From contig ML978131.1 of assembly GCA_010015805.1 (NCBI GenBank), forward strand, positions 620,001-684,000: DNA of 64,000 bases, in the 5' to 3' direction. The position numbers and the translations under genes were made by a program. The stretch is from Rhizodiscina lignyota (lineage: Eukaryota; Ascomycota; Dothideomycetes; Aulographales; Rhizodiscinaceae). Under the pieces are notes generated by a model that ran no database searches, was not told the DNA's origin, and was given only the letters and a program-made list of their open reading frames with translations. Shown here in pieces: positions 1 to 40,750 of this stretch. Within the stretch, counting starts at the first letter, position 1, and the number at the start of each line of letters is the position of its first letter.

Positions 1-826
1 TTCCTTCCCAAATGAGCAGTGGTGATGGCTCAGTTTGGTGGCTGCGGTGACTTGGGAACCTCAAAGGTTCTCGTTAAAGCCGTCGCTCTTAAGACAGGCC
101 TAACCCTCAAGTTCCCTCGTGTTCAATTCTTCGTTGGAGCATTCATGGACGTGCTCTCGGCCATTGCTATTCCCAGCTCTTGTCGTTCGTTTTGATCATC
201 GACACATCGTTAACCATGCAAACATGCGTTACATTGGCCTCCCCGCAGACATCTTTGGAGGCCTCAAACTGCCAGCAATATTACAAAACAATGAGGGGTT
301 TAAGGGGCACTGGCATGCATCGCTTGCATCGGCCGCGTTGCAACTATGCAGAGAATTGGCAGGAACGGTGCCAAGCCAGTCAGATCACCCTCAACCACAA
401 GGATTGAATAACCCTAACCCTACCGCATTCAACCCTAACCCCTTCCCGCTTAGCCCACCATTCAGCCGCGCGGCTCATGTGCCATCGTTCACCGCTACCG
501 CTCGCCGCGGATGGCCATTCGAGGTGCGGGCGCGATCATCGGCCCAAACTGTTGAGCGCAAACTTGCAGACGGCTTCATCGAGAGCGGATCCCATAGACT
601 GTTCACATGTCCCTACTTCCACGAGGCTACTGCTACCAGTTGCGCTTGGTGCGACCCTGAAGAACGATGTCCCTCTTGTGTGTCCATATGGAACCGGCTC
701 AGACGTCCTCGATTCCGGATTGACGGCGACATTGTCTCATGGTCCATTGATTCTTGCCACGCAACTGCGCAAACATTAGAGGGAGACTGCCAATCGAAAG
801 ATCATTGCGCGCTCGATTACGACGAC
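1..826 (+). promoter_or_regulatory. Leader/promoter region of the forkhead gene with telomere-like motifs
   Basis: The forkhead reading frame stays open through most of this stretch (from about 119), but the first codon of that open frame is GTG and the sequence looks less protein-like than what follows, so I treat it as leader. Copies of AACCCTAACCC lie at 410-420 and AACCCTAACC at 431-440, with a further AACCCT near 101. In-frame ATGs at 224 and 827 are the possible earlier starts. Coding use of part of this stretch, or an unseen intron, cannot be excluded. Confidence 0.4.
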
Positions 827-3800: not shown

Positions 3801-4162
3801 AGTCTCTCGCTCAGGCTCAAGCTCAGACTGTGCCACACGCTTCAACGCCGGTGCAGTCGCAACCGTATGCGCCTCCACCGCGGGGTCAGACGCCGCAGGC
3901 GCCACAGCCTGAGCCGCTGACTCGGCCGAATTCAGTGCACAGCATTCGACAGGATGGTTCTCATACTCCGCCTCTCCCACCACAGCAGCCCGCGGCTCAG
4001 ATGCCGGCCAATCCCGTGCAGCCTGCTCCTGCCGCCTTGCCAAATGGCCATGATCAAGTATCCGGTAGTCTTCCAATGCCAGAGAGCAGTGGAGCTCTAA
4101 AGAGAAGCGCGGAAGAGGCAGCTGGAAGTGACGACGAGACGAAACGGGCACGGATATCGTGA
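827..4162 (+). CDS. fhl1: FHA and forkhead domain transcription factor, FHL1-like
   Basis: Single-exon gene, 1111 aa from the ATG at 827. In yeast FHL1 sits at ribosomal-protein promoters with its cofactor IFH1; that role is assumed here by family. A split FHA domain lies at about residues 120-330 (ILGRD near its start, SRKHCKI and GRNGAFVDN in its core, separated by a Lys/Ser-rich insert). An acidic and basic low-complexity middle follows. The forkhead domain is at about 667-745, with the helix motif GGWQSSVRHNLGQHDAF. The tail is Pro/Gln-rich and ends in an acidic and basic patch. An AT-hook-like GRPPKDG precedes the forkhead domain. The start is uncertain: ATG at 1028 (MEDPDEL, good context) and ATG at 224 are in the same frame. 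I chose 827 because the protein from there is acidic and well composed. FHA plus forkhead in one protein makes the FHL1/FKH group secure; FHL1 is preferred because of length and domain order. Confidence 0.85.
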   Translation: MTDDEEDGDVGSRNGELEATNTLQDTGESSATHLQESASNTVKPEIPHSPEYLFSREIPSFPLQQSNMEDPDELQDTSTHPAPKCENGHELPSLNNIQEQEKVCFEGGPSQQNGNQSARISAYAKLQFEDGAYYMNTISVILGRDLEVSREARRQVTRQKRQNSVGEVHTPVVAQGEDSRTVVSASGGFVGRNPKPRKHKSNKSKSGSSTSDPVRTALPLPATTFQHALDVDSPEVDVAALLPDPYEEPLVAIHEPVASDGTISLSKSISRKHCKIAYNYVSDGFEMTILGRNGAFVDNQHYDAGAVVSLHHGSEIQVGGVKIAFNLPTEALPDGDQQSSSGRMSFAFEDETGGDIDVDDSADDFEDLDVARRPRLDPYWSQGDDSQDAEEDSGSEDQEEEVQRPQRVKLTQKKQLSASKPSKVTLKNGHKKSGKAREIPRAQGEKEPEKKKPAKISTHKAAKKRLSAKEDVADVATSIEGAEEDAISDTPAAAQSTLGKKRTKTPAEASKRTKSKSPTDDSGKPQVNRDQALVNGEGGINVEGLQPGTVIPARRKGPGRPPKDGIMSKREKALIAKREKERERAIKLGEDPDNLPPLDLSAPKPRPKDGSKDANATETPNAPSMTPNVEAGEDSPAEKRVVRPSKVRTPSPEMKEEDFTREQLERPAGNYVSLLYEVLQEKGKLNLQQIYVAMEKKWPFFRFRGGSGGWQSSVRHNLGQHDAFRKVEKDGKGYTWEINPDVSIEPVKKQKKQATPPPPPQPPRAYNHQYHAPGSYPSQPHGYPPPLPNGTYPNRGPQYQQTGVPAPLGGAPPVVGPGQQPSNYSSPYAPAPAASGHRPPAAQYPNGTTPTTQHPPAQYHGLPSNPPNAQRPPGPANATPAPHQQGQSAPPPARGPWSRDALLTTVSRIYADKVPPGTDLDRLCSRAIDAFLFPDQFQRTQAPLHGMEVDIVNALAAAHESQKTGRPVQTPAPPTMHGGSAPSQSQSPAPQQSLAQAQAQTVPHASTPVQSQPYAPPPRGQTPQAPQPEPLTRPNSVHSIRQDGSHTPPLPPQQPAAQMPANPVQPAPAALPNGHDQVSGSLPMPESSGALKRSAEEAAGSDDETKRARIS

Positions 4163-13984: not shown

Positions 13985-16205
13985 ATGGCGTCAAGAGCGA
14001 TCCCTTCACACCTCAAGCCCGCCGCTGCTGCGAACAACGCAACCAACGGCGATGCTGGCGAGTTTGCCCGCCGACACCATGGCAAGACTCAATCACACGT
14101 GGTGAGTACAGGAACCTTCATTTCAGCTGGTCATGCCTCCTCGAATGCCTCCGTCACATGCTGGAGCTCCTGGCCTTGCTTGCACATCCCTCCGACGCGG
14201 CAAATTTCCGAGCAACACAGGTTTTTGGCTGGCTCGAGCTTTCCGCACAAGGGGTGTGTCCAAGCAAGCGACACTGCTTGACTTCAACGTGGCACAAAAC
14301 TCTACTCGACTCTCGAATACCGACGATATCCTCGAATGGAGCGTATGAAGCAGAGCATCTACGTCATTGATTTCGCGACCAGTGACAAGAAGCGTCTGCG
14401 CCTCGTGAGCACTCCTGCAGAAGCTCCCTTGCCCGGTTTCGCAGACACCGCGGTGTGAAAATCGCCTTTTGGCAAGATCGACAACTCAGCCTCCAACCAC
14501 ACACCGCTCGACACTCGTGCATCCTACGAGCTTGCACATCCAATCGACCTTCAACACTATTTTGAGGCAAAATAGCTTCCAGGAGCTCCAGCTGGCGAAA
14601 TGGGCAGAAACGACTCGTGGAGTGCATGCATCACCAGTTTTGCTTTTCTTTGTCATGGAACATATGCTAACCATTATACCCTCTATAGGCGTTCGAGAAC
14701 ACCTCCACATCTGTGGCGGCCTCGCAAATGCGCAATGCCTTGAACAACTTGGTAGACACAGTCCAGAATCCGGAGGAAAAGAAGGTACGAAGCCCTTCAA
14801 GCATACGAGGGAGAAATCGCTAACACAGCTCTCATAGCGCTTCGAGACTGAGATGGACAATTTCTTCGCACTCTTCCGCAGATATCTCAATGACAAGGCC
14901 AAGGGTACTGCTATCGACTGGGAACGCATCGCTCCCCCGAAGCAGGACCAAGTCGTCGAGTACAGCACCCTTGCCAACTCGGATTCCGTCGAATACCTCA
15001 AGAAGCTCGCGGTTGTCAAGTTGAATGGCGGTCTGGGTACATCTATGGGTTGCGTTGGCCCCAAGTCGGTCATCGAGGTCCGTGATGGCATGTCCTTCCT
15101 CGACCTGTCGGTTAGGCAGATTGAGTACCTCAACCGCACCTACGACGTCAACGTCCCCTTCGTCCTCATGAACTCCTTCAACACCGACGCAGATACCGCC
15201 AACATCATCAAGAAGTACGAGGGCCACAACATCGATATCATGACCTTCAACCAGTCCCGCTATCCCCGTATCCTTAAGGACTCTCTCCTCCCCGCCCCTA
15301 AGACCGCCGACTCTCAAATCTCAGACTGGTACCCACCAGGTCACGGTGACGTGTTCGAGTCGCTCTACAACTCTGGTATCCTCGACAAGCTGATCGACCG
15401 CGGCATCGAGATCATCTTCCTCTCCAACGCTGATAACTTAGGTGCGGTTGTCGATCTCCGCATTCTGCAGCACATGGTTGACACCAAGGCGGAATACATT
15501 ATGGAGTTGACAGACAAGACCAAGGCGGACGTCAAGGGTGGCACAATCATCGACTACGAGGGCTCCGTGCGCCTGCTCGAAATCGCGCAGGTGCCGAAGC
15601 AGCACGTCAACGAATTCAAGTCGATCAAGAAGTTCAAGTACTTCAACACCAACAACATCTGGATGAACCTCAAGGCGGTCAAGCGCGTCGTCGAGAACAA
15701 CGAGCTCGCCATGGAGATCATCCCCAACGAGAAGAGCATCCCGGCCGACAAGAAGGGCGAGGCAGACCTCTCCGTCGTGCAGCTCGAGACCGCCGTCGGT
15801 GCCGCTATCCGCCACTTCTCAAACGCGCACGGTGTCAACGTCCCACGTAGACGCTTCCTGCCCGTCAAGACGTGCTCCGATCTCATGCTCGTCAAGTCCG
15901 ACCTCTACACCCTTTCGCACGGCCAACTGCTCATGGACCCGAACCGCTTCGGCCCGGCGCCGCTCATCAAGCTGGGCAGCGACTTCAAGAAGGTGTCCAG
16001 CTTCCAGTCGCGCATCCCGTCAATCCCAAAGATCGTCGAACTCGACCACCTCACCATCACCGGTGCCGTCAACCTCGGCCGCGGTGTCACGCTCAAGGGC
16101 ACCGTCATTATCGTCGCGACGGAGGGCAGCACGATCGATATCCCGCCCGGCTCGATCCTCGAGAACGTGGTGGTGCAGGGAAGCTTGAGGCTCTTGGAGC
16201 ATTAA
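13985..16205 (+). CDS. ugp1: UTP-glucose-1-phosphate uridylyltransferase (UGP1)
   Basis: Three exons: 13985-14101, 14689-14784 and 14838-16205, 526 aa, the normal length for fungal UGPase. The enzyme makes UDP-glucose from UTP and glucose-1-phosphate in the cytosol, feeding glycogen, trehalose, beta-glucan and galactose metabolism. The nucleotide-binding signature [16 protein letters not shown] lies at about residues 128-143. Further family blocks are [45 protein letters not shown], and the C-terminal left-handed beta-helix ending in [12 protein letters not shown]. Exon 1 ends CACGTG/gtgagt and exon 2 begins GCGTTCGAG, restoring [13 protein letters not shown] of the conserved N-terminus. Intron 1 is 587 bp, long for a fungus. 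Base composition in exon 3 is C-rich at third positions, fitting strong expression. Confidence 0.97.
14102..14688 (+). other. Long first intron of UGP1
   Basis: 587 bp, donor GTGAGT, branch site TGCTAAC at about 14665-14671, acceptor CTATAG. About ten times the length of the other introns here. I see no additional exon in it. Confidence 0.85.
14785..14837 (+). other. Second intron of UGP1
   Basis: 53 bp, donor GTACGA, branch GCTAACA, acceptor CTCATAG; phase 0. Confidence 0.88.
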
Positions 16206-19660: not shown

Positions 19661-21473
19661 ATACGATCATTGAATATTATCACCCTCTACCTCGCGGTAC
19701 TGGCAAATGCTATTGCAGACTTGCCAGACGACTTCACAGGCAAGCCTAGATATAGCGCAGTTTCGAAGACAACTAAGGGCCTTCCTGCAATCACTAAAGC
19801 TGCAGATGTCCATAAACCATTCGGAAACCATTTCGAGAAGCATGAATCGAGGCTGGCGAAGAGGCAATTCAGCAACGAAACCCATTTCACTGTTACTCCA
19901 AACACTACTTCTTCAGCAACCTCGACCAGCACATATTCAGTAGGGGCCTTCCTCTGTCCTCCCGCTTTACCCAGTAATGATCCTATATCGTTCGTGAAGT
20001 CAGGAGCTGTGGAGTTCCTAGACGATTTCCTTGGTGCTCATTCTCCCCCTGGTATGGAAATGTCACGCTATATGTTCTTATACCCTAGCGGCTGACAATC
20101 TCTTTCAGGAGCCCATGGAGCCATCCCAGACAACTGGCTTAATGTCATGGATTCAAATACGACAAACGATGGCAACTTCCAGTCTGCTCTGGATTGTCGG
20201 GAGTTGGGTGGGGAAACATGCCCAATTCCAACTGAAGATTGCAAAACCTTTACACCACCAGCAGGTAAATGACAATCCTTAAAGATATCATTATAATGTC
20301 TTAGATTTTCTTCTCCTTCAACCAACAAAGCTGACTGATCTACAAGTTTGGTGGATAAGGGTAGCGGCTACGCAAGCCCACGACTTCTTTACACGCGCCC
20401 ACGAGACTTTGCAAGATGCTACTATACTGGACGCTCTTCAGATAGACCAAATTGTGAACGACTTTACCATTCCCCAACCGGATCCCAACAGCTTGGGCAA
20501 CCAGGGAATCATCGCGGATGTCTTAAAAGCTCTCTCACCTGTCTTTTCCATGGGAGACAAAGTCATCAAACAGGAATCCGGCTTTGGCCCGACAGCGGAC
20601 GCGCTGGGGTTTATCGGCGGAGCAGTCAACGAAGCAGCTGCAGACATAACTCTTGCTGATCCGAGTGGCGCTGCTGGAGAAGCCCTTGACAATCTTGGCG
20701 ACATGACAAGAGCGGCAGAGCGCACGTTGGCAAACGCGTTCAACAAGACAAACATAAACATTGCGAACGCGAATCGCGTGCTTTTTGGCGACTCTACAGG
20801 CGATTCCAATGCCTTCCAAGCCATCATTCGTGGCGCTGCAACGGCCGGCGCTACTATAGATCCTAACTTATTTTCGCAGACCGCTCTATTCGCGACCGGC
20901 TTTTTCACCGTGGATCCTGACTCGGCGCAAGCCAGTCTCAAGAATGGCCTCCTAGCAGGTATAAACCTGCTACAGCAGCAGCTTGTCGGCGCAGTGTTAG
21001 CGGCCCAGCATGTCGTAGTTTTCCAAAATCTGAACGGCAACCAACAGGGCTGTGACGCCGTCTCAAGCAACGGGAAATTCCTCGACAACACTTGCTTCAC
21101 GATGGCACAGGCGCACATCCTCGCCGGCAACGGCAAGAGTGACAGCAGCGATCTCTCAGCCGACATCATGAACAAGTTGCAGGGACCCCCTTACAACATC
21201 AACCTCGAGTCGCTTTACCGCAACGTCCAGGCCTGCAACAACGCCAAGACGCCAAACACTGGAATCACCTTCGATGGTGACTTCCCGTCATGTGCCTTCG
21301 GCTTGCCTTTCATGAGCGCTAAGGACCGGATCTGTAACGTGGCGAGCCGTGGTCCGTTCGATCGCAGTTTCCAGTTCGATCGTTGCTTCAACGCGCCGGA
21401 CACGACGTTCACTGAAGACGGAGGGTTCGAAACGCCCTCTCCCGGCGAGAACTGCATTGTGAGCGGCTGTTGA
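19661..21473 (+). CDS. Predicted secreted protein, start codon apparently ATA
   Basis: Three exons: 19661-20051, 20109-20264 and 20347-21473, 557 aa when read from codon 19661. Introns 20052-20108 (GTATGG, CTGAC branch, TTTCAG) and 20265-20346 (GTAAAT, CTGACTGAT, ACAAG) are phase-consistent. The first residues after the start form a secretion signal (LNIITLYLAVLANAIA), and LAKR/QF at about residues 65-69 is a possible Kex2 cleavage site, so a pro-region is likely. The mature part has paired cysteines (CRELGGETCPIPTEDC, CNNAKTP..SCAFG, CNVA, CFNAP, CIVSGC) and looks extracellular. No catalytic motif recognised; function unknown. The codon in the initiator position is ATA: the frame has no ATG upstream before a stop, and none in exon 1. 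Either an ATG was mutated to ATA (a TpG to TpA change) or the start is elsewhere. Confidence 0.65.
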
Positions 21474-24195: not shown

Positions 24196-25985
24196 CTATT
24201 CCCCTGTATTTTTCTCCGCTGTACCACCATCACCTGTCTCAATACTGGTTTTCTTGTCTTCCCCTGCGATGCCAAACTGTGTATCCAATTCCTCTCTCAG
24301 CGGGACTTCTTTCTCTATGAAAGCCAGCAGAAAACCAAAGCCGGCGAAGCCAATGGCAATCTGCCAAATACGTCGAAGACTTTCATCCAGTACAGTTATG
24401 AATTGGCGGCGAGACGGCTCTTGGAGCATGTCGCGAAAGGCAGCCGTGGCATGCGAGTATGCTTGGCGGCCGATCAACTCTTCTCTGACCGTTGCGTTTG
24501 TGATCTGGTAAGCCAGTTGGCTGAAGCGGTTATCAAAGATGGCCGCCGGGATGGCTGTACCCCAAGTCATGCCAAAGCTTCGCAGGAAGGACCATGTTCC
24601 CGCAGCGAGCGCCGTATCAGCCTCAGGGAGCGATGCCATCACAGCAGGAAGTAAGGTTGGAATGATCAAGCCGCTTCCCAGGGAAACAACAACCTGATAT
24701 CCGACCCATGCGCCAGTGCTAGAGTTCTCGTCCAGCAGCGTGAACAAACCGTACCCGACAACCATCAGAGCATAGCTGGCATGGTGGATGGGACGGTAGC
24801 GGCCTAGCTTGGACATGACAATGCCTCCCGAAGCAGCAGCAGGAATGATCACAAGGATTGAAGGAAGTAACTGGATCCCTGAGCGGCTCGGTGAAGCATC
24901 AAGAACGCCCTGAAAGTAGAGCGGCAGAAAGTAAAGAGCCCAGAGGCCAGTGTTACTATGCATGAATGTGAGAGCATATGCTGTGGCGGAGGTTCGGTTT
25001 GATAGAAGTCGGAGCGGCATGGTCGGCTGTGAGACAAAACGGGATCCTTCAAATACCAGGAATGCTCCAAGACCTGCCAGGCCGACGATCAAGGGCACGA
25101 GGACGTGGAAGGATGACCATTCGTATATGCTGCCGGCCCAGGATAAAGATATGAGAATGGAGCAGACCGACAGGACGAAGATGACGTTGCCAAACCAATC
25201 AATCATCGCCAACCTCGTTGAGAGGGTCATCTCCTTGATATAGTTCACATTCAGGAAAAGGTATAAAAGTACGAGCGCGAGGCCTCCGATAGGCAGGTTC
25301 AGATAGAAGATCCAGCGCCATGATGAATGTTGGACAATAAGTCCACCAAAGAGGGGTCCAAGGGCAGTACCCAGGGCAATGACTCCAAAGATTATGGCCA
25401 GATATGTGCCCCGCTCCCGCATAGGAACGAGATCACAAATGATAATCTCCATGAGAACATTGATGCCGGCTGCACCAATGCCCTGCAGCACGCGTCCTGC
25501 TATCAGCATCCCGATGTTGTTGGCACCTCCGCATATACCGCTGCCAAAGGTATAAATAGCCGTCGCTATAATCATGGGCCAACGACGACCGAATACATTG
25601 GAGAGCTGGCCATACAGTGGTTGTAGTGATGTCCTGCCATCCTTGTCAGTCTTTGTAACTTCGTCTTTTGTTGCACATCCAGCGGTGGACTCAAGTACAT
25701 TGCCAGAAAATAGCCGTTTATGACCCATATGAAGAGATCTCCACCACCCAGGTCGACTAGAATAGATGGTAGGGCGGTCGATGTGAAAGTGGCTTCAATG
25801 GCCGTGAGGAGGCCAGTGACGGCGAGGGCCCCGAGGATCACCCAAAATTTGATATTCTTGTTCAGGCTCGTTGAATTTGTCTTTCCTCCAACCTTTGACA
25901 CCCTCCCACTTGTCGGGTCAAGATCAGTTGCTTCATCTCTGCCGCTAGAGCCAAGTGTATCAGGTAGTTGTGTATCCAGTTGCAT
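24196..25985 (-). CDS. MFS drug/toxin efflux transporter, DHA2-type (14 TM)
   Basis: Two exons on the minus strand, 25985-25699 and 25633-24196, 574 aa. The intron 25634-25698 (65 bp) restores FLAM/TSLQPLYGQLSNVFGRR. A hydrophilic N-terminus of ~45 residues precedes TM1 (FWVILGALAVTGLLTAI). Motif A of the major facilitator family is GQLSNVFGRRWP; motif C is ALGTALGPLFGG at TM5; QGIGAAG and SWRWIFYLNLPIG are typical of 14-TM drug:H+ antiporters such as toxin and azole exporters. The C-terminal hydrophilic tail is rich in Thr and Glu. Plasma-membrane efflux of a small organic compound is expected; substrate unknown. It is not next to a biosynthetic gene, so it may serve general resistance. Confidence 0.92.
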
Positions 25986-26791: not shown

Positions 26792-29700
26792 CTACCGCGA
26801 TAGATACTTCTCAAGATCATCGTTAGACACTTCGTGCATGGTACCCTCACATACCCATACATCCCCCACCCGAGTGTACACAAAGCCATTCTCACAGCTT
26901 CCTAAATCTCGTATTGCTTTCTGGATATCCTTCTCTCTGGCCTTCTCATCCTCCATTTGCTTGATTCTGTCCTCAGCCTCCTTCCATCTACGCATCTCGT
27001 CCTCATTGAAACCATGTTGCTCTGCATTCCTCCGGAATTCCACCGATGCCTGCTTTAGCCGATCGATTTCCCCATCTCTGGCAGCGATATATTCATCCTG
27101 GGTTTTTTTTGCCTCCTCTATCTGGCGCCGTGTTGCATCATCCACGACCTCGTGCTGATGGGGTCTATTTGGTCTCTGGCCGTCATCACTACTTGAGCTC
27201 GAGGAGAAAATGTCATCGATGCTCAGCAAATCTTCTTCGTACTCCTGCTCGTCTTCGTCTACCTCTTCGATTCTGCGGAACTTGGTATCAAGTGGCGAGA
27301 AAGGTGGCTCGTCGTCGGGGATGGATGTGATGGAATCTACGCGCTGCACTGGTCGAAACACACTGGCAGTCCCCGTTTGGGCACGATCAGTATGTGTGTG
27401 CATAGTTGGCGGCGGCAAAGAGTGACCGAAATCACTTGCAAATGGGTTGGCTTTCGGGCTGATCACATGGTCATGCTGGTCAGCTGGTTTGGAGTTGGAC
27501 CGGTCTGCGTGAGTCTCCCACTCTTGATTAATGCGAGCCATGACTGTTTCTGCAGTCACCGGTGGGAGACCATCCAGATCACTGGCTGTGTTGTCCACCA
27601 TCTCTTGGAGATGTGTGAAACCGATACTTTTCGCAAGAGCCTGGATGTGATGCGCGTTGCTCCAAGTTGAGAGACGGTTGACGTCGTTGAAGTATTCCAG
27701 AACCTTCTTATATGCCGTTGAAGATGGATCCTCCAGAAATGGTGCCTCGACCTGGCCTTTTTGAAGCTCATGGTTCAGTAGAGACACGCACTTGTCCGGC
27801 CCGATGTTCTCAAATTTGATCTCCTCAGTGAATAGACCAGACAGCCCCGGCCGAGCAGCCATGAGCTGATTCATTTCATCTGTGAGACCGACGAGAACCA
27901 CAACAATCCTACCCTTGTTTTCTACCATGCTCAAAAACTGTATCAATTCGTTTGCAGCCTCACTGGCGTAGTGAGGCTCTTTCAGTTGCTGAGCTTCTTC
28001 GATGACAAGAACTTTGCCAAGCGCCTTTTGGAGCTGGAGCTTCGTTTTGGGTGCTGTTTGACCAATGTACTGGCCAATCAAATCAGACGAAGTGCAAGAA
28101 ACCACCGTACTAGTGGATAAGAAGCCAATGTCGTAAAAGATTTTGCCCATTTCGAGAGCAGCGGTCGTCTTTCCAGTGCCTTTGATTGGTCAGAAATGAA
28201 CATAACACAGACGGGCCACGTACCTGGAGGCCCTTTGAAGATGAAATTTGTTGGCACCCAGTCTCTGGGATCAAGCCCGCGCTTGTGGGCAACAATTGAA
28301 AGTTTCTGGAACCTTTCCAGCTTCACAATGACATTCTCACCAACCCGACCTTCGAGAAGCTTTCTGCAGGTCCCAACACCAGCTGAGGTCCTATTAAAGT
28401 TTGGATCGATATCCTGTGACTCGAACACCACCTCAAATGGACGCTCCAAAACATCAACATTTGCATACCTGCTCTCATAATTCATCTTGGCATCAGCCAT
28501 CAAGCGTTCAACTTCGCCTGCATTCGAAAAGTTTGGCCGCATCAATGCTCTTTCGAAAATTCCGCGGGCAACCTCGTAGGCATCATCAGTAGCATCCAGG
28601 TCTTGCTCTTTCATCTTCTTCCGCATGATATTTTCCAGCTCTGAAACAGTGAAATTGTCAAACCGAAAGGGACTCTCGATCGGAAATCGCCTGGACAGTC
28701 CAGGATTGGCGTGGTGGAACATGTTCTTCAGCTTGTCTTCATAGCCGACGAGGATAATAGCTCTGTCCTCGCCCAAGACACCTTGGACTTCGGCAACAAT
28801 CGTATCAATGACACCACTACGGTATGAGTCTGTTTGCATGTCGCCGGGGTGGAGCATATACGCTTCGTCAATAACGAGCACTTTTCCAACTGTAGAGGCT
28901 AAAATGGCCCTTGTATTGGCCTCCGACTTGCCCACGGCATCGCCGATGAAATCTGAAGGGTTCTTAAGAACAACTAATACAGTCAGCTAGCCCGAAGCTA
29001 TGTGGGTGCTGCGTACCATCACCCCGACTAAGGAGTCCAAGGTCGGCCAGAATTTGACCATACAATCTGGCAACCGTTGTCTTTCCCGTCCCTGGATTGC
29101 CAACAAAGACTTGGTTCAGGGGTACTCTGACTGGATTCCTCTCGGCAAGTTCACGTTTATAGTTAAACTCGATCATCCTAAACAGTTGCTTCACAGACTT
29201 CTTGACGCTATCGAGTCCGATCAGCTTCTCCAACTCTTTCCAGGCCTGGCTGTCTTTTGAGGCTTGTGATGGATCCGGTCCGATCAGGTCTTCCTTTTTG
29301 AAAAAGAAACGGTCAGGATCTCCATGGTTGTGCTGGTCGTTTTTGTGTTTCCGAACTTCATTTCTTATGCGTAAAGCTTGGCGTTCCGAAATGGTGGCAA
29401 GAAGGTTCTCAACCGCACGAGCATTGCCAAACGACTTGCTTCCACGGCCAAGACCCAGTCGGCGAATGGCAATGTGCATATACAAGCCGCCCATATCGTC
29501 GTCGACCTTCATTCTTCCACCGTACTTGGCCTCAATCTTGTCACACATGATTTTCCAGAGTTCGTCATCCGAAAAGTCGGCAAAAGTCAGTGTGTATGGA
29601 ATTCTACTCGCCAATCCAGGATTGTGCTCGAAGAAAGCTTCCATGTCGCTCTTGTACCCTGCGAAAATGGCCAGCAGCTTCTCAATATTGTTCTCCATTT

Positions 29701-31034
29701 CTGTGAGAATGACGTCGAGTGCTTGCCGCCCTTGGTTGGATGAGTGTGGCGCAACAAGTTGATACGCTTCATCAACGAAGAGCGTGCCTCCATCAGAGTC
29801 GCTTAATAGTTTCTTGATACTCTTCTTGGCGCCTTTTGGCCCTCTATACGCCAACTTTGCTCCCGTGGTGTTCTTCATCTTTTTCGATTCCAAAGCTCCA
29901 ACAAGGTGCATGAACTCTCCATAAATTAGGGCAACAGTCGTCTTCCCTGTGTGAATTTGGTCAGTATGGTTTGGACGGAGAGGAACATCTCTAACCTGTT
30001 CCGGGGTTCCCTTGGAAGATGACGTTGAACCTCTCTGTTTTCACGTTCACTTGGTGTTTTTTGTGATCACGACTGCGATTACGCTTGCGCTTGCGATATG
30101 ACCAAGTATCGCTATCCCAACACTCACTGCCACTATCGGAGTCGGAATTGAGCGCGGCCTGTTGATCTCGGCAGGTATCGATCTTGGCTAAAATTGAAAG
30201 AAATTGAGCCTTCACTTCTTCCAGCCCAACCAAGGCCATCAGCTGATCGATCTTCTGTGCCCATTCCTCGTTGGTAATGTGCTCGTTTTGTTGCTTGTGC
30301 TTTTCCCATTCTTCTTTTGCGGTAGATGGCTTGAGTTTGAATCGTTTAGCGGCAGCAATGTTGTCAAGTGCTGGCATTTCCTGAGTTTTTGTCTCCTTTG
30401 CTGGATGCAATGAATCTTCTCCTGCTGGATCTGGTGGACGTTCCGAGGTTTCTGCCATTTCCGGAGTTGGCATGTCATTTGGTACTGGCATGTCTTTGGG
30501 TGTTAGTGCATCTTCTGACGGGGATGCATCTTTTGACAGTGGTGCATCTTCTGGCTCTGGCGCATCTTCTGGCTCTGGCGCATCTTCTGGCTCTGGCGCA
30601 TCTTCTGGCTCTGGCGCATCTTCCGCTCTTGGTGCTTCATCCTGTGATGGTGTATCCTCTGATACTGATACAGCTTCTGATGTTGGTGTATCTTCTAGCA
30701 CTGTTGCCTCAGTTTCTGACGCTGGAAAATCTTCTGATACTGCCGCCTCAGCTTCTGGTATTGATGCATCAGCATCTTCTTCAACACCCTGATCATGCGC
30801 CTCTCCTAGAAGCGAAGCATCTGGCTTTCCTGCACTATAAGATATGGAAGTTCGACGAGAAGACCCTGCACTGTGAATTCTGTTGACTTCTTCCTCCGGT
30901 TCGGACTTTGGGCTTGGAGGCGACGACAAGCTGGGTCCTGAGGATTCACTGCTTGCTAAAGGGGCCGCTGCGTCTTCCTCAGTATCTGATACCACTGCAT
31001 CGAGGGATGCTGACGCTGCAGAATTGGAGTCCAT
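26792..31034 (-). CDS. Triple AAA+ ATPase, CbxX/CfxQ (SpoVK-like) family
   Basis: Four exons on the minus strand: 31034-29996, 29946-29017, 28973-28224 and 28179-26792, 1368 aa. All three introns (49, 43, 44 bp) cut near Walker A or just downstream of it. Three CbxX-type modules follow an acidic, repeat-bearing N-terminus. Module 1: GNPGTGKT at ~341-348, Walker B TLFVDEAYQL. Module 2: GNPGTGKT near 629, Walker B VLVIDEAYML. Module 3: GPPGTGKT near 903, Walker B VLVIEEAQQL, so the usual Asp-Glu is Glu-Glu. Modules 1 and 2 also keep NPGL(A/S)SR(I/F) blocks. The C-terminus has a long charged coiled coil (~1225-1330) and a short cysteine-bearing end. Bacterial and red-plastid CbxX remodels Rubisco; the fungal multi-module forms have no established role that I know of. 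Lies in the same orientation upstream of nothing obvious but next to the gasdermin/CHAT pair. Confidence 0.9.
28180..28223 (-). other. Intron 3 of the AAA+ gene
   Basis: 44 bp, GTACGT donor, CTGACC branch, AAAG acceptor; restores FKGPPGTGKTTAALEMG. Confidence 0.88.
28974..29016 (-). other. Intron 2 of the AAA+ gene
   Basis: 43 bp, GTACGC donor, GCTGAC branch, ATTAG acceptor; restores SRGDVVLKNPSDFIGD. Confidence 0.88.
29947..29995 (-). other. Intron 1 of the AAA+ gene
   Basis: 49 bp inside the first Walker A motif (PGTG/KTT). GTTAGA donor, CTGAC branch, CACAG acceptor, phase 1. Confidence 0.88.
30544..30621 (-). repeat. 18-bp coding minisatellite (EPEDAP units)
   Basis: Four near-perfect 18-bp copies plus a partial one, encoding Glu-Pro-Glu-Asp-Ala-Pro repeats in the acidic N-terminus of the AAA+ protein. 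Degenerate related units flank it on both sides. Copy number is likely to vary among strains. Confidence 0.85.
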
Positions 31035-31917: not shown

Positions 31918-32799
31918 CTAGACCAATTCGATACGGCCGTTGGTGTCATCTTCAGCCTCTTCCTCCTCTTCGTCGGCCAAATCCAGATCAAAATCATTCA
32001 CGGTAAGCTTCGTGAGGTCAAGTTCTTGTTTGTCCTCTTCCCCAAACGCAGCCTCGTGCTTTTGTGGCTGCAATCCTTGTCGGTCCATGCGGATCTCTTT
32101 TAGTATGTTCATCTTAACAAGGCTGTATGCGACAGCAATGATCTCGTCCTTGCCAATAGTCTGCTTTCTATCGCGGCTCAAGCTAGCCGAGGCATTGTAG
32201 TCAACTGAAGGGTCCAAAGCCTCTGCAGGGATCAATCCGGGGGAAGCTCCGGCTGCTGTGAGTGCAGTTTTAACAGGGATTTTCGCGTTGACTTTGTCGC
32301 TTGAGCTCGAATCGGTTGTTCTTTCCCAAGACGCATCACTGGTGGTGAGGAAGCCAGTGACGAAGTAGCCCTTTTTGCCTTTGGTGGCCAAAAGGAACTT
32401 TTTGACATCAGCTCGATAATGTTGATCATCCATGAGTTCCTCGAAGAATTCATCCGGGTTCTGAAGTCTGTATTCATCTACAGACTTGGGGTGCATGACG
32501 ACGGTCTCCTTGGTATCTGTGTCAAACTGGAGCCCGAGAAACTCGCCAACACCGGCGCCAAACCCTCTTTTCTTACCGGCCACAACATGATCTTTGGTGA
32601 TATTGCGTGTCACTGGCTCTGGAAGAAGATCCTCAATGAGATCCGCTGGACGATGCGCTGGAATCTTCGCGGGCTGGCGTTTCGAAGGAGCATAGTTATC
32701 GAGTGGACGAAGTTTGTCCGCGACAATAAGGCACATCAACTCATCTTTCTCCTTCGAAGCGAGGGTGTCGTCAAGAACAAAGAAGCGCCGACCAGCCAT
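31918..32799 (-). CDS. Putative fungal gasdermin (HET-Q1/RCD-1-like)
   Basis: Single exon, 293 aa from the ATG at 32799 (context AAAATGGC; the frame is open a little further upstream without an ATG). Gasdermins oligomerise into membrane pores and cause lytic cell death after release of their pore-forming part by proteolysis. What I see: no signal peptide, mixed alpha/beta composition, and a central block at residues ~143-175 (KKGYFVTGFLTTSDASWERT ending AKIPV) that lines up by eye with the conserved hairpin of gasdermin-N (pattern LYVVTEV..T..VTLER...FSLP). Residues ~212-235 (TIGKDEIIAVAYSLVKMN) resemble the following gasdermin strand. The tail, ~260-293, is strongly acidic (EEEEEAEDD), as expected for a removable inhibitory end. 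It is divergent from the CHAT protease gene at 33389, the arrangement known for fungal gasdermin/protease pairs. No database search was possible; a conserved fungal protein of unknown function is the alternative. Confidence 0.6.
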   Translation of the reverse strand: MAGRRFFVLDDTLASKEKDELMCLIVADKLRPLDNYAPSKRQPAKIPAHRPADLIEDLLPEPVTRNITKDHVVAGKKRGFGAGVGEFLGLQFDTDTKETVVMHPKSVDEYRLQNPDEFFEELMDDQHYRADVKKFLLATKGKKGYFVTGFLTTSDASWERTTDSSSSDKVNAKIPVKTALTAAGASPGLIPAEALDPSVDYNASASLSRDRKQTIGKDEIIAVAYSLVKMNILKEIRMDRQGLQPQKHEAAFGEEDKQELDLTKLTVNDFDLDLADEEEEEAEDDTNGRIELV

Positions 32800-33388
32800 T
32801 TTTGGATAAAGCTTTTTAGGCAAGGTGCGATTATTGATTTGTCGCTAATTGGAGTACCGAGAAGCAAAGCAATGGGAATCAAGCTCGCGTGCACAAGGAA
32901 AGGTTAACAAGAGAATTTCTCAGGCATCCGCCCTCCTAGCCCAGATATCTAGAGTAATGAGTTAGGTACAACGCTGCAATGTCCTGTCCTCAGCCTTGTC
33001 AAATGACGGACAGCTCCAGCTTTGTCTGTGCCCGGCAACTTTAGTCGATGCCACATTACCCAACTCCGCAGTGACGGGACCTCCGGGCTCGTCTAACCTG
33101 GGCCAGGAGAAGGCATGGAGTGGTTTCTCCTGCAAGGCTACCCAACCCCTGCAACTGCAGCCAGCGCATACGCGATAGTTCAACCTGGAATCCAGCGCAC
33201 CAAGGCAAAAAGTGGCGAGCAATCGTATGAGCTGCCAGCCTGTGAAACTTGCAACAGCACTCGTGTGCATTGTTCACTCGACATGCTTCATCGGATTAAG
33301 TTCTGATACTGTCTCCCTCTTGTTTCTTGCTCGAGACGAGACAGGCAAACTAATATTCAAGTCGCCTCTATTATTTCTCCTGTCCAGT
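32800..33388. promoter_or_regulatory. Shared divergent promoter of gasdermin-like and CHAT genes
   Basis: 589 bp between the two start codons, with one frame open on the plus strand up to the CHAT start but lacking a convincing upstream start (its first codon is GTG). Both genes probably draw promoter elements from it. Confidence 0.5.
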
Positions 33389-36300
33389 ATGGCACCTAAT
33401 GTCGCAATCAACATCACAGCTAGTGAAGCCATTCCCGATGAAGCTGACACCAACGAAGGGCCTGAAAACAAGTTGCATCGCTGGTCTATATCTGTTTCAG
33501 TCAATGGGAAATCTATATACGCCCACAGAGTAATCGAAGATCCGTTCCTGAACCCACACGGAGAAGAAGAAGAGGATAAAAGGGAAGAATGCCGTTGGTA
33601 TGTTGAAGAATTCGCCATCAAAGAGCCGTTTAAGCAACAAAAGGCTTCCGAGGTCGCCGAACAGCTTCAGACATATGCTACGTCTCTACTTACCCAACTC
33701 GGGCTTCAGCAGGTGCTGAAAGATGAGCTGCAAGACGACGCCAACGAGGATGACGCCAATGATAATCCACATGTTTTGATAGCGATTTCAGAAGATTTGG
33801 ACGTTAAGAGCTCAATCCACCGTTTACATTGGGAACTGCTCGAAGATTCAGCCGTGTGGGATCTCCAGGCCGAGATTACTGTCAAGCGCCTTGTCAAAAT
33901 GAGACGTGCTACTCCATCGCTGCTTATTGCAGAGGTGAAACCGGATGAGCAACATCCCACCAAGGTTACGGTAGTGAATGGCTTACTGGTTGTCGCTCGT
34001 GATCTCTCAGAGAGTTCACAGAAGAGTGACATCAATCCTAACCTCGCCTTCGGTGTCCTTGCAAACATTCAAAAGGACCTCGTCAGTTTTTCAGATGGCG
34101 CTCGGCTGAACCTTGAGGTAGTCAGGCCCGGAACTTTCAAGGCGCTACAGGAACACTTGGATCGAGCCGCGGAAATGCACGGCAAGGGCCATTACCATTT
34201 CATCCATTTCGACCTTCATGGGAAAGTAGATAAGGAAACAAGCACTGCCAGCTTGCTCTTCAATGATTCCGAGCTGAACGAAAAGAAACGAGTCGAGGAG
34301 CCTGCTCACAAGGTCGCCTCTCTACTCGGATCTCATAATATCAGCGTTGCCATCCTCAATGCCTGCGAATCGGCCAAGGCTGACTCTGGAGATTCTGCCA
34401 ACGTCGCGAAAACTTTCGTTGACGGTGGAGTTAAGAGTGTTTTGGCAATGTCATACAAACTATCCAGCTCAGCAGCCGAGCCATTCCTCAGGGGCCTCTA
34501 CCATTCGCTATTTCTCGATGGCAACACGCTGCCACAAGCGGCTAGAAATGCTCGAACCATGCTACGTGAGAATCCGCACCGTCATGCAAGGCTTGGTCTG
34601 AAGGTAGCAGTCAATGACTACTTCATCCCAGTCCTCTATAGTCATGGACAGGACCCAAAATTCATCCCTCGACAGAGAAAGCGCATCTCCAGCCAGTTTG
34701 GACTTGTCGACTTTGCGAGGCGCCGTGGAGAGCTTAGGTCTAATGATACCAGGCCTTTGACTGGCCGAGACTTTGACGTTTTGCGATTAGAGAAATGTCT
34801 GATCGAACATGGCAAGGTTCACCTCTCTGGACGTGCCGGTGTAGGCAAGACAGCACTGCTGCGCTACGCAAGTACAATCTGGATCCAGACCTCGTTCATC
34901 GACACCGTTGCATTTATTGACCTTTCCAAAGTCAAGGACTTGCCTAATGCAGTCAATGCTTTGATTTCTCAAATACCGAGAGCGACGGATGAATTGGCAT
35001 ATGATCTCAGGCTGGCACTTGAGTCTGAGAACTCCAACGACAAGTCACTATCGACACTTATTTCAATTTGCTCCGAACAATCACTTGTATTCGTCGTCGA
35101 CAGCATTCCATCCGACAAGCAGATCAAAATGTCTCTCGATCCAAACGACATGACAGACTTTAAAGCCATGGACCGCTTCCTGGGAACGCTGCTTCGGCTG
35201 AACGAAACCGTGAAATCGACTCGTGTTATTTTTGTTTCCCGATTGAATGGGGACGAATTACCAATCTCCAAGGAATTGCATACTGGCATCAGTGGCGTAA
35301 CCATGAGGCTCCAACCACTCGGATTAGATGATGCTGTTCAACTGAGCCAGTTGATCCTCGAGAGCTCCGGGCTGCATATGGATGACTGGAAAGACAGTCA
35401 CGACCGACAGCTCAAGCTGCTTGTTGGTCTGTGCGACGGCAACCCTTCAGTAATTGCGCAGGTTTCTCACCAGATGCCCAGTTCTGGTAAATCGCTTGAA
35501 GACTTTCTGGACCAGATCCAGGTCGGAATTCCTCCAGAGCATCAAGCCTTTGGCGAAGGACAGGATCTCGTTGATGAGCTGGACCATATATTCAACTCAT
35601 TCAACGATGAGCAGCGCGCTTTCTTCATCTTCATCAGTGTCTTTTGGACTGAAGCTTTTCCAATCTCCTATTTCACTGACTGGATTGTTGCAATGGAGAT
35701 ATGCAAGGACCAGAGAAATAGTCTAGCCATCCAATATCTTCAGGCACGGGGCATTATCGAGCTTGGACTGCTAATGACGAAGCCCAACGACGAGGAAACC
35801 GGATTAAAAATGATCACTTGGATCCACCCACTCCTTACGACATACGGTCGAAGAATTGCGTACAACACGCTCGCGAAGAAACGAGGCCGCCTGGGGAAAA
35901 GCCAAATCGAGGCAGCTACACTGGTTTGCCTGGTAATGGGCACAAAGTTCAAGGCGGGAAGGCAGTCTAAAAGGTTTCTCGCTTTGAGTCAGAGCGTGTT
36001 CCTCTGGCTCATTCAAGGTATTGCGGGTGCTGACGGTCAACGACTGGCGGTATCCATCTTGGAAGGGCTAGAATATGCGAAGCTAGCTTCCTTCCTGCCT
36101 CTTCAAACGGGTAACTTAGCTCTCTGTTTATCGTTATGCCTACGTCTGCCTCTGGAATTATGGCGTCTAGATTATTTCGAGTTCCATGTTGCCAACCTAC
36201 GCTTGGTCGCTAGACCCGAACATCTGGAGCAATTCACTCGCCGCTTTGGGGATCTTCTAGACAAACTTTTGGAGCTTAACGGCGGATGTGCCATTCCACA

Positions 36301-37996
36301 AGCATATCTCGCTTTCAGCCTCCTCACAGCAATCAGCCTAGCAGCAATATATTCCTCGGAATGGCCACGCAAGGAAATGCGTGAGAAATACGTGAAGCTT
36401 GCTCTTCGGATCGTTGAAGACACCGAGGAGAATGAACTCAAGAACAGTGGGGCCAATCCATTCCCCGTGGGTTCACGGGCATTTTACATGAAGGGACTAG
36501 CATATCGCCACGAACTCATGCTCGAACTGGAACGAGGAAATCTAGAAGCAGCCTTTCAGACCTGTGACAAATGTCTCGAGATTGACGAATCTCTCCTAAA
36601 ACACATGGAAGGGGGTGCCCAGTTAGTCGAATCTTCGCTGGACGATGCCAGAATCAAAGAGATGGCCAACCTGTTCCCTAACCAGCAATCAGCTAACGTA
36701 GCCAAGGAGAGGTTAGAGGCCATATCGCAGAACAAGATGGCAGTTGCTTACACTGAGTCTCGCGTGACTCTTCTGAACACTGTTAAAGTGTATCTGGCCG
36801 AAAAAATCGGAAAACATATAGACCCGCGCTTCAAGAGGCAGTACAATCCCAGCAAGCTCGGGGCCAAGATGGGCGCGAAACGTGGGAAAGGAGCAATGCA
36901 TGCTGTTAATCAGGCGGGAGATCTGATGGGTCTCTTGAACATGAACAAGGCCTCTGACTGGTACGATGGGAGCGACTACATGGATGAGTTCGTGGATCAT
37001 CGAAATAGCGAAGAAGAGAGGCTGAAAGATCTCGACCGCGATATCGGGCTGGGGAACATTCCAAGGGCAACAGAGACATACGCCAAGGTCATCGCATCTT
37101 CACTGCGTAGCCTGGACCTCGATCGCACAGGGGCGTATCTCAGCGGCCTCGCTGATTTCGCCCAGCACAATCTCATACCAAGCATGGAAAATGTAGACTG
37201 GGTTGGCGGGCAGACTCTCTTTGGTAGCCTCAAGACGACAATGAACATAGTCACGGGAAAGTCGACTTCCAAGGACCATAAAGTGGACCACGTGGTAATC
37301 GACAAAGCCTTGCAAGAGGAGATTCGCGTGCTCGAGGAGAGCAATGCACATCCTGACCTAATCAAAGCGGCTAAGATGCGTCGTCGAGGGTGGTTGAAAG
37401 ATCCGGACGCACTCAAGCACGGTGGTTCCCCTGAAGAAAACAAAATGCGCGAAACCAACACGAAAAATGCATTACACATCCTGATGGATAATGCGGGCCG
37501 GCCTGGATACCAGGAAAGACTGGTTGCGGCCAACGTCGAGTTCGAGTCCTTGAAGACGCGGGTGGTGGATGGGGAACAAGCTGTACAGGCCGCGTGGAAC
37601 TCGGGCAAGAAAGCACGAAGTATGGAAGACGAACCGGACATGATGAAAATGTACAAAGACATCATCGCCGCGTTGGATGATATGCAAACGTTCTGTGCAA
37701 AACCAGGCAACGAGGTATTCCGTGCCGTCTTTGGGGACGGCGAGACGTATTTCGACGAAAATCGTGAGCCGTATTTGGTCAATCTCGCTGCTGAAGCGGT
37801 GCGCGAGTCCTTTCAGAACGCCATTGTGCGCGGAGATTATGATGGGGCCCAGAGAGTTGTTGAGGGCTTTAAGGGCAGTTTGGATGAGAAGCTGCGTCGC
37901 AGCGCACATGCGGAGAAGATTGTGAATGGATGGCAAGCGATGATCGATGAGGGACCAGCGAATATAGCAGAATTTCGAAAGTTGATGGGCAGATGA
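33389..37996 (+). CDS. CHAT-domain protease fused to a STAND-type NTPase (HET-Q2-like)
   Basis: Single uninterrupted exon, 1535 aa from ATG 33389 (context CAGTATGGC). Residues ~180-420 form a caspase-like CHAT protease: the catalytic His is His277 in HFDLHG and the catalytic Cys is Cys326 in LNACESA, both intact. Typical CHAT blocks FVDGGVKSVLAMSY and AARNARTML follow. A P-loop NTPase starts at ~460: TGRDFDVLRLEKCL, Walker A GRAGVGKT (Lys487), and Walker B SLVFVVDSI at ~570. The C-terminal ~700 residues are helical and repeat-like, though no clean TPR consensus is visible. The order protease-NTPase-helical repeats is that of fungal NLR-like proteins; the NTPase would sense a trigger and activate the protease. 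In Podospora the HET-Q2 subtilisin cleaves gasdermin HET-Q1, and CHAT forms are the other known partner class. The adjacent divergent gasdermin-like gene is the likely substrate. Confidence 0.88.
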   Translation: MAPNVAINITASEAIPDEADTNEGPENKLHRWSISVSVNGKSIYAHRVIEDPFLNPHGEEEEDKREECRWYVEEFAIKEPFKQQKASEVAEQLQTYATSLLTQLGLQQVLKDELQDDANEDDANDNPHVLIAISEDLDVKSSIHRLHWELLEDSAVWDLQAEITVKRLVKMRRATPSLLIAEVKPDEQHPTKVTVVNGLLVVARDLSESSQKSDINPNLAFGVLANIQKDLVSFSDGARLNLEVVRPGTFKALQEHLDRAAEMHGKGHYHFIHFDLHGKVDKETSTASLLFNDSELNEKKRVEEPAHKVASLLGSHNISVAILNACESAKADSGDSANVAKTFVDGGVKSVLAMSYKLSSSAAEPFLRGLYHSLFLDGNTLPQAARNARTMLRENPHRHARLGLKVAVNDYFIPVLYSHGQDPKFIPRQRKRISSQFGLVDFARRRGELRSNDTRPLTGRDFDVLRLEKCLIEHGKVHLSGRAGVGKTALLRYASTIWIQTSFIDTVAFIDLSKVKDLPNAVNALISQIPRATDELAYDLRLALESENSNDKSLSTLISICSEQSLVFVVDSIPSDKQIKMSLDPNDMTDFKAMDRFLGTLLRLNETVKSTRVIFVSRLNGDELPISKELHTGISGVTMRLQPLGLDDAVQLSQLILESSGLHMDDWKDSHDRQLKLLVGLCDGNPSVIAQVSHQMPSSGKSLEDFLDQIQVGIPPEHQAFGEGQDLVDELDHIFNSFNDEQRAFFIFISVFWTEAFPISYFTDWIVAMEICKDQRNSLAIQYLQARGIIELGLLMTKPNDEETGLKMITWIHPLLTTYGRRIAYNTLAKKRGRLGKSQIEAATLVCLVMGTKFKAGRQSKRFLALSQSVFLWLIQGIAGADGQRLAVSILEGLEYAKLASFLPLQTGNLALCLSLCLRLPLELWRLDYFEFHVANLRLVARPEHLEQFTRRFGDLLDKLLELNGGCAIPQAYLAFSLLTAISLAAIYSSEWPRKEMREKYVKLALRIVEDTEENELKNSGANPFPVGSRAFYMKGLAYRHELMLELERGNLEAAFQTCDKCLEIDESLLKHMEGGAQLVESSLDDARIKEMANLFPNQQSANVAKERLEAISQNKMAVAYTESRVTLLNTVKVYLAEKIGKHIDPRFKRQYNPSKLGAKMGAKRGKGAMHAVNQAGDLMGLLNMNKASDWYDGSDYMDEFVDHRNSEEERLKDLDRDIGLGNIPRATETYAKVIASSLRSLDLDRTGAYLSGLADFAQHNLIPSMENVDWVGGQTLFGSLKTTMNIVTGKSTSKDHKVDHVVIDKALQEEIRVLEESNAHPDLIKAAKMRRRGWLKDPDALKHGGSPEENKMRETNTKNALHILMDNAGRPGYQERLVAANVEFESLKTRVVDGEQAVQAAWNSGKKARSMEDEPDMMKMYKDIIAALDDMQTFCAKPGNEVFRAVFGDGETYFDENREPYLVNLAAEAVRESFQNAIVRGDYDGAQRVVEGFKGSLDEKLRRSAHAEKIVNGWQAMIDEGPANIAEFRKLMGR

Positions 37997-38806: not shown

Positions 38807-40750
38807 ATGGCGACGGCGCAAGAGGCGTCGCCCGCGCCGACGGAGACGGAGACAAGAGAAGCGATGGAGTTTTGGGGATATCTATTCAAGCCGGACAAGT
38901 GTGGCACGGATATGCTGAACAACTTGCTCAGAGGAATTGCTATTTATATTGTATGCGGACACCCGAAATTCCCTCAGATCTCCTTCACTGCAATCGCTCG
39001 GATACAAGTTCTACATGCAGACTATTTGATGTTTACGCAAAGCTAATCGCAACCTCATTCACAGTCTACCAAACTCTCCCCCGACTCATGTCAAGACCTC
39101 CTCCCCTCCCAACTCGCCGAGTTCTACCGCGCTGTCGGTGGCAACTACGACATTCTCTTCATTGACACCCCCCTCTCCTCCCTCTCCTTTATCTACAAGT
39201 CACTCGGGTGCCTACACTCCATCCAACCCAGCGCAACCGACGATGGCTATACGGGCCCCAGCGTCCCCGCCTTGAAGCAGAAAGGCTTCATAACATGGCA
39301 AACAATACAACTCCTTCTTGGTCCGGAGGAGCATGTGCCGTTCCTCCAGCACGCGGTGAAGCAGTATGACATTGTGAATCCAGAGACAGGGGCGCCATTC
39401 CCAAAGGTCCTGCCGAAGGAAGCGTTCCCGGAGAAGCCAGACCCGGCGATGCAGAACTGGTACGAGGAGGTTTCAGAGCGGCTTTCGCGTGATGCGGAAG
39501 CTGAGCGGGATATTAAGACGGCCGGCGCAGGACCTAGTCGCGCACCTCGGCCAGGTGTTGATGCGCAAGTAGAAGTCAGCAGCGATAGCGACGACGAGAG
39601 GAGCCAGGCTGCAAAGTATTTCTCCAATCCGCTATATCGCGACGGCGACGGTCGGCCGCGGATTGTGAGGAGGGGATCGAAGCAGAGGCCGTACAGTCCA
39701 CGCGAGACTCTGTATGATAGAGGGAAAGCTGTAGTGCATGGCGTGAGGCACTTTATTTCGCCTTCATATGACGGTGGGCGGCGAAGGAGAAGCTATCCCG
39801 AACGCCGCGATCAAATCAGCGTCGTAGATGGTGACGTGGAAGAAGAGGATGAGGAAGACATTGGGCCGACCACATTACATCCTACATACGTGCCGCGTGT
39901 GGCAAGAGAGCGGCAGGCCGCCGCTGCGGCAGCAGCACAAAGGCGACGGCAAGAGACGCCTTCAACCGAGCCAGACAGCTCAGAAGACGAGCCCCCTGGG
40001 TCGTCAAGGCCACCAGGCAACCAACCCCCGCCGCCTAGTGCACGACCGCCTCTGCACCATAGACGAAGCGACGACCCGTCGACCGGCCCGCGGGATTACT
40101 TCCCACCACAAGGGCCACTGTATCCCCAGCACGGCCGCCGGCATTCAGCACACAGTCCGCTGTATGCAGGCAGTCCAGGCGCTAACGGCTTTGAACCAAG
40201 CGATAGCCCCCTGTTTGCGACGCAGATCGGGCAGGCGAGTAAGTCCGGTGGGCCTCCTCGACGCGCTGGTGGCTCGCCACTACGAGGAGAGTATAATCGA
40301 AGAGATTCAAGAGACCCTAGAGACCCCAGAGATAGAAGAGATCCTAGAGATGCAAGAGATCCTAGAGATGCAAGAGACCCTAGAGACCCTAGAGACCCAC
40401 GCGATCCGCGAGATGCAAGAGACGCAAGAGATCGATACGAGCGCGACGGCCGACCCGAACGACCGCCTGCGGGCCGGAGAAGGAGTAGTTCGGGACATAC
40501 ATATACGAGTTATGATCGGCCTCCGGAGTTCTCGCCTGCATATAGAGTGCAGTCCGAGCGAGACCAACGAGCGCAGGAGCGGGAAAGGGAGAGGCTGAGA
40601 GAGCGGGATAGGAGAAGGAGTCGTAGTCAGGGGCATAGTAATGAGCGGCCAAGGATGCCGAGACATATCACCCCAGTGGATGGCGTGGGTGGGAGGAGGT
40701 ATGTGAGTCCGGTTTGGGGGAATCGATATGACCCACCGGCCTCGGGATAG
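38807..40750 (+). CDS. DUF7514-like protein with Arg-Asp repeat tail
   Basis: Two exons, 38807-38950 and 39065-40750, 609 aa. The intron 38951-39064 is 114 bp (GTATGC donor, CTAAT, TTCACAG acceptor, phase 0). The N-terminal ~170 residues match a domain common in fungal proteins of unknown role: FWGYLFKPDKCGTDMLNNLL, then LPSQLAEFYRAVGGNYD, then GFITWQTIQLLLGPEEHVPFLQHAVK. The rest is disordered and highly charged, with RRSRSYPERR-like segments, a Pro-rich part, and an Arg-Asp repeat (RDPRDPRD..., about residues 460-510). RD/RS-rich tails suggest RNA-related or condensate-type behaviour, but no function can be given. Confidence 0.75.
40297..40440 (+). repeat. 9-bp based coding repeat (RDPRDARD units)
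   Basis: Imperfect tandem repeat of AGAGAYCCY-like units encoding Arg-Asp-Pro/Ala repeats in the tail of the DUF7514-like protein. Likely polymorphic. Confidence 0.8.

Follow-up and report, generated by a model that had tools for sequence, protein, structure and literature searches.

A Putative Gasdermin Gene Paired Head to Head with an NLR-like CHAT Protease Gene in the Fungus Rhizodiscina lignyota

The genome of the fungus Rhizodiscina lignyota, a dothideomycete (33.4 Mb in 29 contigs), carries on contig ML978131.1 a pair of divergent genes that very likely constitutes a two-gene module for regulated cell death, in which a tail-inhibited gasdermin would be cut by a NOD-like receptor (NLR)-like protein bearing a CHAT protease. 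The pair lies in a stretch of 64,000 nucleotides, which we call the window and whose numbering is used unless another contig is named. Both genes are open, the larger encodes a CHAT dyad and nucleoside triphosphatase (NTPase) motifs, the divergent pairing recurs, and the predicted model of the smaller protein has a gasdermin-like fold. A preliminary description, made by eye from the sequence of the window, had proposed such a module, and fold searches and conserved pairing both support it.

The smaller gene (31918..32799, minus strand) encodes a presumed pore-former of 293 amino acids in a single frame that is open throughout from ATG 32799. When an AlphaFold 2 (AF2) model of this protein, built on an alignment of nine sequences, was used for fold searches, the top rows were gasdermins throughout (25 of 25 in VIA and 28 of 28 in Foldseek), and the nearest solved folds were those of RCD-1 (8jyy and 8jyz). 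Comparison of a structure prediction with gasdermin-N had been set beforehand as a possible refutation, and its outcome favours a gasdermin. Model secondary structure, collinearity with RCD-1-1 and the family alignment together place the gasdermin-N-like part at residues 1-232 (32104..32799, minus strand), which include the block YFVTGFLTTSD...NAKIPV...AVAYSLVK. The earlier alignment of this region with gasdermin-N, drawn by eye, was right, in that profile searches found the same block collinear with RCD-1-1 (E value 1.1) and, using profile A4 with a related protein from contig C7 added, matched it to gasdermin D (E value 0.17). Neither match is significant, and it is on the fold comparison that we base the assignment. 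The gasdermin-N fold of the predicted model thus supports the identification of the 293-residue protein as a fungal gasdermin.

Gene Arrangement and the CHAT Receptor

The partner gene (33389..37996, plus strand) encodes a protease of 1535 amino acids, likewise in a single frame that is open throughout. Its frame also stays open upstream of ATG 33389, as far as GTG 33212, and we favour the ATG as the start because the starts of its relatives on contigs C4 and C6 read alike by eye. The two starts are 589 bp apart, as previously described, and this divergent intergenic region (32800..33388) presumably holds both promoters. The spacing is well within the 10 kb that defines a two-gene cluster of fungal gasdermin and protease.

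A CHAT protease domain occupies residues 189-399 (33953..34585, plus strand) and scores 48.2 bits with Pfam PF12770, against a cut-off of 24 (E value 1.3e-12). The presumed catalytic residues are His277 (codon 34217..34219) and Cys326 (codon 34364..34366), both at the positions first given for them, and each is conserved in all 52 homologues among the matches listed by protein search. The P-loop NTPase region that characterizes NLR and STAND-type receptors follows at about residues 457-690 (34757..35458, plus strand), where we recognize what we take to be Walker A (GRAGVGKT), Walker B, an arginine at 618 and GNP. In the same homologue set, the glycine and lysine of Walker A are kept in 52 of 52 and the Walker B acid is aspartate or glutamate in 52 of 52, while the proline of GxP is kept in 46 of 52. 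The conserved His, Cys and NTPase motifs are what one expects if both the enzyme and the NTPase switch are intact.

Beyond the NTPase, model secondary structure read by eye suggests a winged-helix-like part at about residues 725-812 (35561..35824, plus strand), leading into an IHP motif (residues 812-814) whose three residues are invariant in 16 of 16 rows. Residues 861-1535 (35969..37993, plus strand) are modelled as a helical, repeat-like part that is presumably the sensor; VIA matches to the C-terminal part are mostly helical-repeat proteins, and the AF2 predicted local distance difference test score (pLDDT) for residues 690-1535 is 81.

Recurrence of the Pair

A genome search with the 293-residue protein found two paralogues, on contigs C4 (34%, E value 1e-29) and C6 (31%, E value 3.5e-29), and the window protease matches the same two places. 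Both are divergent NLR-like CHAT/gasdermin pairs, with start-to-start distances of 615 bp at C4:147500-157499 and, from ORF (open reading frame) coordinates, 417 bp at C6:2132000-2141999; family member P0004 (NA57DRAFT_76462 of R. lignyota) is encoded on C6. The flanking genes differ, being a sulfatase gene at C4, a gene for a beta-propeller protein at C6 and an AAA ATPase gene in the window, and hence it is the two genes as a unit that have been retained. These copies are old: the protease pieces at C4 and C6 are closer to proteins from other sources than to the window protease.

A fourth gasdermin-like gene was reached on contig C7 with P0005 as query (E value 7e-4). This ORF of 304 amino acids with an acidic tail (C7:1128938-1129852, plus strand) matches the gasdermin-like family by hhalign (E value 7.7e-12) and by a hidden Markov model at 56.6 bits, compared with 2.7 for the best of 200 shuffles and 2.8 for the best of 102 control ORFs taken from the window and five loci, the window's own gasdermin being left out. 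It is again divergent, 324 bp from a CHAT gene (C7:1124807-1128615, minus strand), and both frames are open. The product of that CHAT gene, a frame of 1268 amino acids with the CHAT domain at its C-terminus (Pfam CHAT, 120.5 bits), is of a different type from that of the window. By eye it had seemed to be a tetratricopeptide repeat (TPR)-CHAT protein, a label that we dropped when a Pfam scan covering 861 of the 1268 residues found no TPR at an E value of 0.1 or below.

As lower bounds, the genome contains at least four gasdermin-like and at least five CHAT genes. Each of the four gasdermin-like genes found has a CHAT gene beside it in head-to-head orientation, and four of the five CHAT genes found have a gasdermin-like partner. 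The remaining CHAT gene (C1:3877000-3886900) covers nearly the whole Pfam CHAT model, and P0001, P0005 and the C7 protein have no match on its contig. The Pfam CHAT search of the genome recovered four of the five; the C6 copy came from the protein search.

Outside this genome, the closest relatives of the window pair among the matches listed are P0003 for the gasdermin (55% over 83%) and P0010 for the protease (52% over 77%). Each is listed on two contigs, the longest of 8378 bp, and because these contig entries are alike, the pair is very probably co-located in another organism as well. No further outside pair came to light, in that the contigs of P0005-P0009 did not recur among the CHAT matches listed, which is weak evidence given intron-blind gene calls and a search confined to 8000 candidates. 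Conserved pairing was the other point on which the proposal might have failed, and three more pairs in the genome and one inferred outside pair speak in its favour.

Tail Cleavage and Alternative Readings

In all nine aligned family members, the last core strand is followed by an acidic tail of 60-101 residues with a net charge of -6 to -17, a count that is weakened because five of the nine (P0005-P0009) share 57-80% identity with one another. In the window gasdermin this tail, presumably inhibitory, comprises residues 233-293 (31921..32103, minus strand); its net charge is -14 when counted from residue 230, and pLDDT is below 50 at residues 234-286. The model also shows a terminal strand at residues 288-292, which we set aside because of its low confidence. 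Tail conservation is poor, with a mean pair score of 0.24 versus 1.54 for the whole nine-sequence alignment. The exception is an island, [AM][FL][GS] plus an acidic run, whose best five-column window scores 2.91. It reads AFG plus acidic residues in the window protein (residues 251-255; 32035..32049, minus strand), and we propose it as a candidate site of CHAT cutting or docking. Cleavage after F252 is predicted to free 41 residues, or 4.7 kDa. No mapped CHAT cut site came up in the literature covered on fungal gasdermin-protease pairs.

We infer the following course of events. The gasdermin would be kept inactive by its short acidic tail, while the neighbouring gene would supply an NLR-like receptor in which an N-terminal CHAT cysteine protease is followed by a STAND NTPase switch that includes a winged-helix-like part and, at the C-terminus, by a helical sensor. 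On sensing a trigger, which might be non-self or damage, the NTPase would assemble the receptor, and the CHAT domain would then cleave the tail of the gasdermin, probably in or close to the AFG-acidic island (around residue 252), freeing about 4.7 kDa. The N-terminal part could thereupon form membrane pores and bring about cell death. Such a system would amount to a contracted pyroptosis-like pathway, in which a single molecule is both sensor and caspase-like protease and the gasdermin stands alongside; PMC10197012 describes this scheme for fungi.

Several results weigh against this reading. For example, the gasdermin model is of moderate confidence (pLDDT 59.5, predicted template modelling score 0.55; averages over five models 43-60), Foldseek gives low template modelling (TM) scores (its best match has 0.30 and 0.36), and only three Foldseek rows have an E value below 0.001. 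In the profile searches, unrelated chains outrank both RCD-1-1 and gasdermin D, and profile A2, to which more family members had been added, loses RCD-1 and reaches no known gasdermin. The 293-residue protein has no Pfam match to any gasdermin family, none of the four gasdermin-like proteins has a PADLOC match, and the N-terminal part is near neutral rather than basic (net -5 to +2 across the nine members). On the receptor side, the fused P-loop NTPase of the preliminary description stands as far as its conserved Walker A, Walker B and GxP motifs are concerned, but no NTPase model of Pfam reaches its cut-off (AAA_16, 23.1 against 32.6 bits; NB-ARC, 13.9 against 23.5; NACHT, 14.5 against 26.7). 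Because the NB-ARC and NACHT scores both fall below the curated cut-off, we call the receptor NLR-like and do not file it under either family. Finally, the protease appears not always to be kept, since its frame looks broken at both C4 and C6. At C4 homology extends to residue 1250, with a change of frame near residue 140; at C6 the frame changes just past the catalytic Cys, a single in-frame TAG occurs, and homology stops near residue 830. The gasdermin frames at both places are open. An intron in place of either frame change was rejected, as protein homology, by eye, continues across and leaves no room for one; assembly error is a possible cause of the breaks.

Other searches added little. 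With the 293-residue protein alone as query, sequence searches of Pfam, PADLOC and the PDB gave nothing useful, and a PDB search with the C7 gasdermin-like protein alone gave no match. A scan of prokaryote genomes for the gasdermin-like protein yielded no relative, as expected of a fungal family. The best-ranked PDB match of the profiles, coat protein 6yfh (E values 0.02-0.07), is regarded as a chance match, since its coverage is limited to about 45 residues. Electrostatic masking by the tail is left as speculation, the tail being acidic in nine of nine members but the N-terminal part near neutral.

The alternative that survives best, which we nevertheless regard as improbable, is that the gasdermin acts without cleavage, as does RCD-1 of Neurospora, where two allelic variants form the pore, and that the CHAT neighbour regulates something else. 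RCD-1 is the nearest solved fold and, according to the excerpted text of PMC12881547, works by co-assembly of alleles, and it would suit this alternative that the gasdermin ORFs at C4 and C6 are open while the protease frames look broken. However, the acidic tail is present in nine of nine aligned members, and pairing with a protease has been retained across deep divergence, both of which favour the cleavage-activated module. It is more improbable still that the 293-residue protein is some other pore-former or an unrelated beta-rich protein whose weak alignment AlphaFold drew toward a known fold, since gasdermins form an unbroken top of both fold searches and the weak sequence matches to RCD-1-1 and to gasdermin D hit one and the same block. 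The least probable reading, of chance neighbours without joint action, could appeal to the many roles of CHAT proteins, but it is already disfavoured by the head-to-head position of all four gasdermin-like genes found, one of them (C7) with another type of CHAT gene, and by the very probable co-location of the pair on an outside contig.

Genomic Setting and Known Systems

Beside the gasdermin gene, a run of ORFs at 26792-31034 (minus strand) is probably one multi-AAA gene divided by introns; two that were scanned match AAA ATPases (AAA, AAA_lid_6). Downstream of the protease gene, an ORF at 39272-40750 (plus strand) has a DUF7514 domain end and, by eye, a tract of Arg-Asp-Pro-rich repeats. Further off are ordinary fungal genes, for a forkhead plus FHA protein (119-4162), a UTP-glucose-1-phosphate uridylyltransferase (14853-16205), a Ku_N-like protein (20409-21473) and a major facilitator superfamily transporter (24196-25728).

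The system type is already known, and its pyroptosis-like logic will not surprise the specialist. In PMC10197012, about 1900 fungal gasdermins are reported from 400 genomes; about 63% of these gasdermins are clustered with S8 proteases and 19% lie near CHAT genes, and the accompanying proteases include dozens of CHAT proteins of NLR or NLR-like type. The suggestion that the window pair might be a new architecture must thus be given up. In gene arrangement and domain logic, compared by description only, it looks like a further member of this NLR-like CHAT/gasdermin group. Excerpts of PMC11138114, PMC9815663 and PMC11760362 fit the same fungal gasdermin/protease setting.

Excerpts of PMC12881547 describe, from the work of Clave et al. 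2022, a TPR-bearing CHAT protease of Podospora anserina that is said to activate the gasdermin encoded in the same cluster. The adjacent gasdermin and CHAT genes are alike, whereas CHAT is fused to TPRs there and stands N-terminal to a STAND NTPase and helical part in the window protein. The C7 pair, with its C-terminal CHAT, may be nearer to the P. anserina type, although no Pfam TPR was seen in the residues scanned. The same excerpts report that P. anserina HET-Q1, which also has a short C-terminal tail, loses about 5 kDa by a cut likely at F238, comparable with the 4.7 kDa predicted for a cut after F252. However, its partner HET-Q2 is there an S8 subtilisin-like protease and the genes are idiomorphic, while in the window the partner is a CHAT protease with no S8 domain listed and both genes are present in one strain. 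Hence the pair is not the new HET-Q1/HET-Q2 allele that had been considered. RCD-1-1/RCD-1-2 of Neurospora crassa, the closest in fold, are activated by co-assembly of two alleles and, as portrayed in excerpts of PMC11760362 and PMC12881547, have no inhibitory C-terminal domain. The large CHAT protein of Aspergillus fumigatus hetB (1327 residues) acts in heterokaryon incompatibility, but its locus is idiomorphic and a gasdermin partner is not established there, as far as the excerpts of PMC11138114 extend. The window pair also differs from bacterial gasdermin-protease clusters in being fungal and divergent, in its long NLR-like receptor and in gasdermin-like proteins that PADLOC does not match. 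Our literature search found no work joining gasdermin and Rhizodiscina, and, among the papers listed for CHAT-NLR clusters and cut sites, no title or abstract opening describes the window pair. The stimuli that activate these fungal sensors are named as a major open question in the excerpts of PMC12881547.

Three paralogous NLR-like pairs and a fourth pair of another type in a single genome provide material for comparing partner specificity, and the conserved tail island renders the hypothesis of a CHAT cut site directly testable. A bolder reading, which we put forward as doubtful, holds that the island is a CHAT cut site throughout the family and that the three NLR-like pairs are old, two of them with a decaying protease and a whole gasdermin. 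If this were true, such pairs would supply starting material for pseudogenization, a route that the excerpts of PMC10197012 propose for the origin of some allorecognition systems.

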